64,000 bases of DNA from Actinoplanes lobatus (lineage in GTDB: Bacteria; Actinomycetota; Actinomycetes; Mycobacteriales; Micromonosporaceae), in contig NZ_JACHNC010000001.1 in the NCBI RefSeq assembly GCF_014205215.1, positions 253,001-317,000 on the forward strand. Reading direction: 5' to 3'. Positions within the stretch are counted from its first letter, which is position 1. The number at the start of each line of letters is the position of its first letter. The translations under genes and the position numbers were made by a program. Positions 53,857-55,644 of the stretch are shown in pieces. The notes beneath the pieces were generated by a model, which worked only from the letters and a program-made list of their open reading frames with translations, did not search any database and was not told where the DNA came from.

Positions 53857-54522
53857 GTGACGATCTCAACCACCACCCCCATGCCCGTGATCCCTCCCTA
53901 CGCGACGATGCTCGGCTTCACGCGGTATGTCTCCCGCACCGGCCCGGCGAAGGCCACCTTCGTCGGCGGCCTGCGCCGGCAGCGGGAGCGGCGGAGCGGT
54001 TTCAACCCGCACGGCCAGCTCGTCAAGGCACTGAAGGCGGACATCGCGTTCCGCACCGGCGGCAGCTACCTCGGCGGTGTCGTCGACGTGGTGAAGGACC
54101 GCTGGAAGCCGCTCTACGAGGCGTTGCGCGCCGGCGCCCGCACCTACCTGGCGTCGCTCGGCGACCCGGAGCGGGTCGATCTGGCGCAGACCCGCGACGC
54201 CATCGCCACGGTCGGGCCCCTGGCCGTGAAGATCAACCCACATTTCGGCCTGCGCTATGCCGACGGCCGGCGCGAGGCCGTCCGGCTGCACTTCGACGAG
54301 GAGCCGCCGAGCGCGGAGGCCGCGACCGCGATGCTGCACCTCATGGCCCGCCACATGGACCAGATCCTGCCCAATGCCGAGCCGGTCCTGGTCGACCTGC
54401 GGCGGGGTGTCGCCCACCGCATCGACGGGGCGGCCCGCCCGGCCGACGTCGAGAGCTGGCTCGCCGGCGAGGCGGCCGCCTTCACCGCGATGTGGGCGGC
54501 CACCGCCGCTCCGGCCGCCTGA
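53857..54522 (+). CDS. Protein of unknown function
   Basis: I do not recognise this 221-residue protein. Its first half is basic and helical (ATFVGGLRRQRERRSGFNPHGQL...). The second half has strand-like segments (LAVKINPHFGLRYADGRREAVRLHFDEE) and a helical end (ATAMLHLMARHMDQILPN). There is no signal peptide or membrane helix, so it is probably cytoplasmic. The start GTG at 53857 has GAGGAGACG upstream and a clear promoter, so it is expressed as a single gene with its own terminator. A DNA- or nucleotide-handling role cannot be excluded from sequence alone. Confidence 0.75.
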   Translation: MTISTTTPMPVIPPYATMLGFTRYVSRTGPAKATFVGGLRRQRERRSGFNPHGQLVKALKADIAFRTGGSYLGGVVDVVKDRWKPLYEALRAGARTYLASLGDPERVDLAQTRDAIATVGPLAVKINPHFGLRYADGRREAVRLHFDEEPPSAEAATAMLHLMARHMDQILPNAEPVLVDLRRGVAHRIDGAARPADVESWLAGEAAAFTAMWAATAAPAA

Positions 54523-54527
54523 CCGGT

Positions 54528-54565
54528 GCCGTTGCCCGGTGTGCTCCCCCACACCGGGCAACGGC
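54528..54565 (+). terminator. Strong hairpin terminator
   Basis: A perfect 16-bp stem (54528-54543 with 54550-54565) closes a 6-base loop six bases after the stop of the 53857 gene. It separates that gene from the leader and attenuator of the EamA gene. Confidence 0.85.
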
Positions 54566-54582
54566 GCCCGCCGATGTGGCGC

Positions 54583-54734
54583 TAGGCTGCCGGGCGTGAG
54601 TCCCTTCCCCGGCGTCCTTCCGCCGCCGCGCTCCTGACCGGAGCGCCGCCACGCCGGTCAAGTCCCGCTTGACCGGCTGTCTCGCCTTGCGCTCCGTCGC
54701 CGGCCCTTGACGACTCACTTCCGCACGGAGCGCA
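54583..54734 (+). promoter_or_regulatory. Leader attenuator with SD-sequestering hairpin
   Basis: A -10-like TAGGCT (54583-54588) lies seven bases before a short leader ORF. Downstream come four alternating segments: 1, GCGCTCC (54628-54634); 2, GGAGCGC (54640-54646); 3, GCGCTCC (54689-54695); 4, GGAGCGC (54727-54733), which contains the ribosome-binding site of the exporter gene. Segments 1 and 2 pair over five bases. The full 3-4 pairing is 10 bp (54688-54697 with 54725-54734). Segments 2 and 3 can pair instead (8 bp), leaving the ribosome-binding site free. A separate perfect 10-bp hairpin (54653-54662 with 54668-54677) sits between 2 and 3. Confidence 0.7.
54596..54637 (+). CDS. 13-residue proline-rich leader peptide
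   Basis: A GTG-initiated 13-codon ORF encodes MSPFPGVLPPPRS. Its last codons are CCG CCG CCG CGC TCC TGA, so three consecutive prolines precede the pairing segments by one or two codons. Poly-proline runs slow ribosomes. The -10-like box seven bases upstream makes it leaderless. Because the sequence is short, the assignment rests on the pairing geometry around it, not on codon use. Confidence 0.55.
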   Translation: MSPFPGVLPPPRS

Positions 54735-54735
54735 T

Positions 54736-55644
54736 GTGTTCACCACCACTTCCTCGTCCCGCGCCCTCGGGGCCCGGCTGAGCCTGTTGCAGGTCTCCGC
54801 CGCCGGCGTCCTCTGGGGCACCACCGGCGTCGTCGTCCAGGTCGTCGCCGAGCGCACCGGTCTCGGCGCCCTGGCCATCGGCTTCTACCGGCTCGCCGTC
54901 GCGGCCGCCGTCCTGCTGCTCATCGGCCTGGTCGCCCGCCGCCGGATCGTGGCCGCGTTCCGGGCGGCGCCGCTCGCCGTCACCGTGGCCGGGGTCGGGC
55001 TCGCCGCCTACCAGGCCCTCTACTTCGTGGCCGTCCGTCTCGGCGGGGTCAGCATCGCCACCGTGGTCAGCCTCGGCCTCGCTCCCGTGCTGCTGAGCGC
55101 GTGGGAGACACTGCGCACCCGGCAGCGGCCGGGCGCCGCCGCCCTCGGCGCCTCGGTGGCCGCGATCGCCGGCCTCGTGCTGATCGCCGGCGCCACCGTC
55201 GAACCGGGCGCCGCCACCGCGGCCGGTTACGGGCTGCTCGCCGCGATCGGGTCCGGCGTCGTCTACGCGGCATCCACCGCTGTCAGCCGGCACACCACCC
55301 AGGGCGTCGAGCCGCTGACCCTCACCACCCTGTCCTGCGTGATCGGCGCGGTCAGCCTGCTGCCGATCGCCGCCGTCGAAGGGCTGTCCTTCACCCCGCG
55401 GGCCACCCCGGTCGCGCTGCTCGCCTACGCCGGGGCGGTCACCACGGCGCTGGCGTACGCGCTGTTCTACACCGGGTTGCGCCGCATCTCCGGCAGCGTG
55501 GCCGTGGTGGTCACCCTGCTCGAACCACTCACCGCCGCGCTGCTCGCCGTCGTCCTGATCGACGAGCCGCTCGGCGCCGTCACCATCGTGGGCGGGCTGC
55601 TGCTGCTCGGCGCGGTGGCCACCCTCTACCTCGACGCGGGCTGA
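54736..55644 (+). CDS. EamA-family (DMT) exporter
   Basis: The 302-residue protein has ten membrane helices in two EamA repeats (LSLLQVSAAGVLWGTTGVVVQVV, then GYGLLAAIGSGVVYAASTAVS with LLAYAGAVTTALAYALFYTGLRRI and VVVTLLEPLTAALLAVVLIDEPLG). Relatives export amino acids or small metabolites; the substrate here is unknown. The GTG at 54736 has GGAG five bases upstream, and this site is part of the pairing segment 4. Expression probably depends on the leader peptide described above. Confidence 0.9.
   Translation: MFTTTSSSRALGARLSLLQVSAAGVLWGTTGVVVQVVAERTGLGALAIGFYRLAVAAAVLLLIGLVARRRIVAAFRAAPLAVTVAGVGLAAYQALYFVAVRLGGVSIATVVSLGLAPVLLSAWETLRTRQRPGAAALGASVAAIAGLVLIAGATVEPGAATAAGYGLLAAIGSGVVYAASTAVSRHTTQGVEPLTLTTLSCVIGAVSLLPIAAVEGLSFTPRATPVALLAYAGAVTTALAYALFYTGLRRISGSVAVVVTLLEPLTAALLAVVLIDEPLGAVTIVGGLLLLGAVATLYLDAG

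Follow-up and report, generated by a model that had tools for sequence, protein, structure and literature searches.

Upstream of an exporter gene in Actinoplanes lobatus, a short proline-containing open reading frame (ORF) is followed by RNA segments that can pair in alternative ways, and the question raised by this locus is whether a ribosome slowed on the ORF could open the translation start of the exporter. We examined it in the window, that is, the whole stretch of 64,000 nucleotides under analysis, and in related genomes. On re-reading, the 13-codon GTG ORF of the initial annotation was confirmed at 54596-54637, where it encodes MSPFPGVLPPPRS followed by TGA. The ORF had been described as ending in three consecutive Pro codons; its C-terminal end is in fact Pro-Pro-Pro-Arg-Ser and then the stop, and the Arg and Ser codons plus the final G of Pro11 form segment 1 (Table 1). 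The pairwise identity of the segment cores holds, both for 1 and 3 (GCGCTCC, the latter at 54689-54695) and for 2 and 4 (GGAGCGC, the latter at 54727-54733). Stem 3-4, said to enclose the ribosome-binding site one base from the exporter's GTG, indeed comprises 10 perfect pairs (54688-54697 with 54725-54734), the GTG at 54736 lying one base further 3′. The hexamer TAGGCT was also found where it had been reported, seven bases upstream of the leader; judging from this -10-like sequence only, the mRNA would start at the leader GTG.

Two features were absent from the initial annotation. Segments 2 and 3 enclose a hairpin of 10 perfect base pairs (54653-54662 with 54668-54677), and the leader start, GTGAGTC (54596-54602), is complementary over 7 bases to GACTCAC. 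The 151-nt RNA from the leader start to the EamA start has a predicted folding energy of -72.1 kcal/mol, compared with a mean of -51.8 (sd 4.2) for dinucleotide shuffles, none of which was as stable (z = -4.78; 0/200), and its predicted fold consists of the 1-2 stem, the central hairpin and the 3-4 stem. Between the end of the upstream gene (54522) and the leader promoter, positions 54525-54568 hold a near-perfect 19-bp inverted repeat with a 6-nt loop; it has no T run, so the terminator scan did not call it, and its matches in Rfam were sub-threshold and implausible.

Table 1. Features of the leader element and the exporter gene, with positions in the window.
Feature	Position	Strand	Remark
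-10-like hexamer TAGGCT	54583..54588	+	seven bases 5′ of leader GTG; putative leaderless start
leader ORF MSPFPGVLPPPRS and TGA	54596..54637	+	from sequence; conserved in relatives
Pro9-Pro10-Pro11 codons, proposed pause site	54620..54628	+	two codons 5′ of stop
segment 1 (GCGCTCC)	54628..54634	+	overlaps Arg12 and Ser13 codons
segment 2 (GGAGCGC)	54640..54646	+	begins two bases 3′ of stop codon
central hairpin, 10 perfect pairs	54653..54677	+	in relatives, sequence varies and pairing is kept
segment 3	54688..54697	+	complementary to segments 2 and 4
GACTCAC, complement of leader start GTGAGTC	54712..54718	+	conserved in genus
segment 4 with EamA Shine-Dalgarno GGAG (54727-54730)	54725..54734	+	from sequence
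EamA-family transporter, 302 aa, GTG start	54736..55644	+	Pfam PF00892, E 4.8e-32

The downstream gene encodes an EamA transporter by its Pfam match. Against NCBIfam it gave only matches below the cut-off, the best being 2A78, a carboxylate/amino acid/amine transporter family, and a profile search of solved structures returned a single match, 5i20_A (E 1.4e-6), labelled uncharacterized, which we take to be a YddG homolog. At E <= 1e-20 the exporter had no match among plasmid records. A second EamA homolog of the same genome (L239, E 7.8e-52) has no leaderless leader, so the element appears to go with one group of exporters.

We then looked at conservation within the genus. Exporter homologs at E <= 1e-60 were present in 31 of 67 same-genus genomes, and 30 loci were read (G054, with a split match, was left out). 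All 30 carried the leader, a TANNNT hexamer 6-8 nt 5′ of its ATG or GTG, and GGAG 5′ of the EamA start. The initial annotation had staked its reading on conservation of leader and segments upstream of orthologs; the leader was found at 30/30 loci, and the segments could be aligned at 27 (alignment A1; L027, which is short, and L029 and L030, which have extra repeats, were left out). Same-genus leaders, among them VSPFPGVLPPPRS, VSLYSGVLSPPRS, VSLNLGNLGPPRS, VSPFPGVLPPPRD and MISFLGILPPPRS, end in [L/S/G/P]-P-P-R-x-stop even where exporter identity falls to 53-58%; the search expression of this set (set A) required P-P-R, and no locus was lost through that. Repeated units of the type segment 1, stop, segment 2 lengthen the stretch between leader and segment 3 at L029:1177-1482 and L030:2314-2619.

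Covariation, which had been put forward as a check, was borne out in part. Pairing of the segments is kept (97.9% of A1 cells in helix 3-4, 89.9% in 1-2 and 93.5% in 2-3), and 91.2% of the cells of helices 1-2, central and 3-4 pooled are standard pairs. Over these three helices, 39 cells were double-changed compared with 15.7 in shuffles (0/500 as high), and the number of pairs with double changes was in slight excess (9 versus 6.4; 33/500 as high). The compensatory changes lie mostly in the central hairpin, however: it holds six of the nine doubly changed pairs (among its 11), with two in 3-4, one in 1-2 and zero double changes in 2-3. In L017-L019 the 1-2 stem re-forms, as judged by eye, with its register shifted by five. 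Helix covariation is modest and observed mainly outside the switch helices.

To follow the element beyond the genus, a covariance model (R1) was built from the 27 same-genus sequences and run over 394 class genomes. It gave eight matches at E <= 0.01: the window, three others that are real elements (L032, L035, L037) and, on reading, four probable chance matches, which were rejected (L033, L034, L036, L038). In the window's own genome R1 found the window element only, and a loose pattern gave 17 matches there versus 9 in a reversed control, but is uninformative because it misses that element. Because R1 found few real elements, the set was widened through exporter homology rather than RNA homology.

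A scan of named genomes (set B) used a pattern that runs from the end of the leader into segment 2 and fixes P-P-R-S. At least 118 stretches matched, and at least 73 of them, in eight named families of Actinomycetota, had a leaderless ORF. Among the matches listed, these leaders fall in Micromonosporaceae (40, of which 11 are Actinoplanes and overlap the same-genus set), Thermomonosporaceae (13), Pseudonocardiaceae (8), Streptosporangiaceae (4), Geodermatophilaceae (3), Jiangellaceae (2), Microbacteriaceae (1), Kineosporiaceae (1) and no family (1); the 45 listed matches lacking a leaderless ORF comprise 15 in Actinomycetota and others that are unplaced or spread over at least 10 other phyla. 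An EamA-like frame, judged by an LWG motif, lies downstream of the leader in 70 of the 71 testable places among the matches listed (66 by script and 4 among rows that the script had set aside; two of the 73 loci end too early for the test), and when 54 of the 66 frames were submitted to Pfam together with the window protein, every one was assigned to EamA (55/55). One Micromonospora locus (L058, strain sp. MP36) has the leader MGRTFDIIAPPRS and a -10 hexamer upstream of no EamA-like frame, and its leader is possibly a remnant.

The search through exporter homology (set C) matched at least 152 of the 394 class genomes with a 12-row exporter alignment at E <= 1e-45. Upstream regions were taken for 90 matches, 30 loci including the window and 60 chosen down the match list with most of one large genus (g28) skipped. 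With proline no criterion, leaderless ORFs 9-26 codons long turned up in 47/90 regions, of which 45 had ORFs ending in PP followed by 1-3 residues, exactly two in 38; the exceptions were L165, with PPP and a longer tail, and L218, which lacks PP. Dinucleotide shuffles of the 90 regions yielded 1.1 ORFs, none of them PP-ending. When PP was required in a looser test, 48/90 regions passed, the shuffles giving 0.8 (4 at the highest) and the reverse complements 0. Class-wide leaders include MHRTHPITPPPAL, MHSTVLPPPAA, MPSNALVLPPPAA, MARFLICSPPPAL, VKNTHWHVVLPPPRA and MSSTVLSPPAA. By one leader criterion 42 of the 90 homologs had no leader; L165 carries one with a longer tail, and the PP-ending ORFs of L190 and L202 lack TANNNT. 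When 74 exporter proteins were placed on a tree, the 10 rows lacking a leader required 3 changes, compared with a shuffled mean of 9.6 (0/500 as low). In family f29, three leader-lacking homologs (L181, L182, L184) have their own start codon just 3′ of a TANNNT-like hexamer, an arrangement that would suit a leaderless mRNA of the exporter itself. A recurrent GCTGCCCGC stretch matching segment 2 (GCGGGC) was seen in L206, L212-L215, L226 and L230, and some folds of this group show pairing between leader codons and the start region of EamA. The pairing of the leader start with GACTCAC, paired in 95.1% of A1 cells and never double-changed, was dropped as a general part of the element (mean duplex z -1.91 in set A, -0.31 in B and -0.48 in C). 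Given the fold stability and the conservation across genera, the arrangement is beyond chance, and the element is real and widespread in actinobacteria.

Pooling gave 148 elements, which became 88 non-redundant ones after one was dropped for length and others were merged at 85% similarity. The leader has 13 codons in 60 of the 88 (range 11-16 residues) and ends in TGA (75), TAG (10) or TAA (3). PP is followed by exactly two residues in 81/88, 34 of them in set B being fixed so by the pattern; the search expressions of sets A and B contained Pro-Pro, so the proline-free evidence is the class-wide leaderless-ORF test only. Proline runs reach at most 3 residues in 59 leaders, 2 in 26 and 4 in 3. 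Conservation of the Pro codons, likewise expected at the outset, holds for the Pro-Pro residues but does not extend to the codons, which vary (CCG, CCC, CCT, CCA); it is the residue that is kept, not one codon. Arg-Ser was dropped as a peptide signal, many leaders outside the genus ending in AL, AA, AR and the like. At the level of sequence, Pro-Pro near the stop is constant and Arg-Ser variable.

The initial annotation had proposed that a ribosome at the prolines frees the exporter's start through a switch from 1-2/3-4 to 2-3 pairing, and an in silico masking test agrees with it. In a static model with assumed mask edges, 14 nt were hidden on either side of the first base of the P-site codon and the energy for opening the EamA Shine-Dalgarno and start was computed. 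Across the 88 representatives the opening energy was 11.5 kcal/mol with no ribosome, and it changed by -3.5, -3.9 and -3.7 kcal/mol with the P site three, two and one codons before the last Pro, by -2.0, -0.7 and -0.5 at the last Pro and one and two codons after it, and by -0.1 five codons 5′ of it. With shuffled linkers, the change at minus 2 was -1.8 instead of -3.9 kcal/mol; by set (shuffled in brackets) it was -2.1 (-0.5) in A, -4.8 (-1.9) in B and -4.1 (-2.5) in C. The contrast between Pro-Pro and the last codon exceeded shuffles in every set (p 0.0016 in A, 1.5e-8 in B and 0.00038 in C), as did that between Pro-Pro and a position five codons 5′ of the run, although in C only weakly so (p 0.029); the rows are related, so these p values do not come from independent samples. 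Moving the mask edge to +12 or +17 shifted the optimum by no more than a codon. The window element itself needs 10.7 kcal/mol unoccupied, 5.1, 5.6 and 7.9 at Pro9-Pro11, and 11.4 at Arg12. The effect is uneven: a drop of at least 3 kcal/mol at the prolines was seen in 58% of the 88 representatives, compared with 31% of shuffled ones, and 42% fell short. Opening already reached -3.5 kcal/mol one codon 5′ of the proline run; in set C, leader positions as far as six codons upstream of the last Pro have almost the same effect (-3.4 to -4.1).

Competition between the two states was also seen in the helices. Strong 2-3 and 3-4 helices that exclude each other by competing for one stretch are present in 63/81 elements, compared with 42.7 expected with shuffled linkers (A 20/21 versus 13.7, B 26/34 versus 16.6, C 17/26 versus 12.4), seven short-linker elements being left out of the count. 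In an alignment of 28 of the 35 MHR/MGR-type elements (A4; the other seven have long linkers and were excluded), 2-3 is paired in 99.6% and 3-4 in 91.6% of cells, with one compensatory cell in 2-3 and a covariation score for 3-4 not above shuffles (374/500 as high).

From the sequences and the masking model together, we consider it likely that the element is a translational attenuator of ermC logic, triggered by ribosome pausing at Pro-Pro. The mRNA would probably start at the leader GTG. As long as the leader carries no slow ribosome, 1-2 and 3-4 would fold and the EamA ribosome-binding site would be shut in stem 3-4. A ribosome pausing with Pro9 or Pro10 in the P site would cover the two post-proline codons, which are segment 1, and its front edge would end at about the loop after the stop codon, leaving segment 2 free to pair with 3, to release segment 4 and to allow translation of the exporter. 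This geometry would explain why Pro-Pro stands two codons before the stop. We infer both the pausing at Pro-Pro and its conditional nature. In E. coli, the available text of PMC4176338 reports that Cys or Thr before PPP weakens stalling and that Arg or His strengthens it; the leaders have L (37), T (23), G (15), S (12) or C (1) before the run (n=88), which by analogy would fit conditional pausing only, or argue against strong pausing.

What the ribosome would respond to is a separate matter. In classical proline attenuation a shortage of charged prolyl-tRNA would hold it at the Pro codons and so throw the same RNA switch. Pro alone is kept in the leader, and actinobacterial amino-acid leaders can be as short and leaderless as this, as with S. 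lividans leuL2, of 12 residues, and trpL2, with one Trp, in the part of PMC8079986 available to us. Yet the downstream gene appears to be of exporter type, rather than one for proline biosynthesis, uptake or ProRS, and 26/88 leaders have only two consecutive Pro, so we regard this reading as unlikely.

Equally, the leader might report low EF-P activity as a polyproline stress sensor, the exporter answering a general state and not its own substrate. We know of no link between EF-P and EamA transporters, which counts against such a sensor. Pro-Pro is a known EF-P substrate (available text of PMC4176338) and, in the excerpt of PMC5299641, mgtP leader expression rises without EF-P; but the residues before the proline run differ from the strong-stall ones named in the same part of PMC4176338, and we hold the idea to be improbable.

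Control of termination in place of start-site access, by a hairpin lacking a U tract or by Rho, has precedents: the are5sc and tiaA leaders, tested in S. venezuelae, act via terminators (PMC12421871, in part), and S. lividans leaders lacking a typical terminator are reported in the accessible text of PMC8079986. Here, however, the scan for a hairpin plus T run found 0 terminator-like sites in 54480-54760, so translational rather than intrinsic transcriptional attenuation fits, and the 3′ stem holds the Shine-Dalgarno and ends one base before the start codon, making transcriptional control rather improbable. A ligand- or protein-binding, riboswitch-like RNA with an incidental ORF, suggested by the very stable fold and the covarying central hairpin, was set aside as very unlikely, since Rfam gave no match at gathering score and in A1 conservation falls on the leader and its -10, on the segments and on the CGACTCAC stretch, the central hairpin having no conserved core, while 45/47 leaderless ORFs are PP-ending. 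The Rfam result covers the window and 18 further loci, in which the element was unmatched and only SRP and tRNA were found, elsewhere in L068.

As trigger of the attenuator paused at Pro-Pro, we prefer to plain proline starvation a compound that is related to what the exporter transports and that slows either the formation of Pro-Pro bonds or the decoding of proline; candidate classes would be peptidyl-transferase inhibitors and proline antimetabolites. Switching on an exporter when amino acids run short would run against physiological sense. More tentatively, and with doubt prevailing, the element may be a class-wide sensor in which the exporter's substrate slows the Pro-Pro step and so induces its own EamA exporter, the nascent-chain Pro-Pro being the detector. 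If true, this would be protein-free, substrate-specific export control built on polyproline pausing. No published description of the element was found in the literature searched, which covered few subscription papers, and within that literature it would be a large, undescribed leader-peptide family. It can be recognized as a leaderless ORF of about 13 codons with Pro-Pro about two codons before the stop, upstream of an EamA gene. The genera concerned include many antibiotic producers, and the element gives a handle on uncharacterised EamA exporters, as compounds could be screened by induction of leader reporters. The leaders may also serve as naturally tuned polyproline sensors of when Pro-Pro translation becomes limiting in actinobacteria.

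Among known systems, ermC-type attenuators combine a short leader ORF with four segments, 1-2/3-4 being the off state and 2-3 the on state, with the Shine-Dalgarno in stem 3-4. Induction of erm leaders is treated in the available part of PMC11264731. The present element resembles them in a leader ORF that overlaps segment 1, in alternative pairings that are kept and in a Shine-Dalgarno in stem 3-4, which in silico is freed with a ribosome at the putative stall codons, the position dependence being weaker in set C. It differs from erm attenuators proper in its downstream gene, an EamA exporter rather than an rRNA methylase, and from the ermC type in having Pro-Pro where these have a macrolide-dependent motif and in an apparently leaderless leader.

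A second comparison is with Salmonella, where mgtL is grouped with the mgtP/mgtCBR leader. According to the text available from PMC5299641, the mgtP/mgtCBR leader ORF affects a transporter operon in an EF-P-dependent manner, by increased transcription. That system gives a precedent for a proline-dependent leader ORF before a transporter gene; it differs in raising transcription, where start-site masking is proposed here, and in an unrelated gene and phylum. In Rhodobacter CutF/CutO, as described in the accessible part of PMC9973294, the upstream ORF likewise has a C-terminal proline-rich motif and a stem-loop lies over the next gene's ribosome-binding site; CutF, however, is an exported copper-sensing protein, and its motif alone is no strong stalling sequence in that text.

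The RAPP arrest peptides ApdA and ApdP, known in actinobacteria too, place R-A-P-P before secDF2 (PMC10951233 and PMC10987492, in the portions available). They share Pro-Pro in the peptide with our leaders, but MSPFPGVLPPPRS lacks R-A-P-P, the printed tail variants have no RAPP, and the leaders are only 11-16 residues long. Whereas the eight amino-acid attenuators of S. lividans named in the available text of PMC8079986 precede biosynthesis, tRNA-ligase or metNIQ genes, and none of them an EamA gene, they resemble the present element in being short leaderless leader ORFs in actinobacteria.
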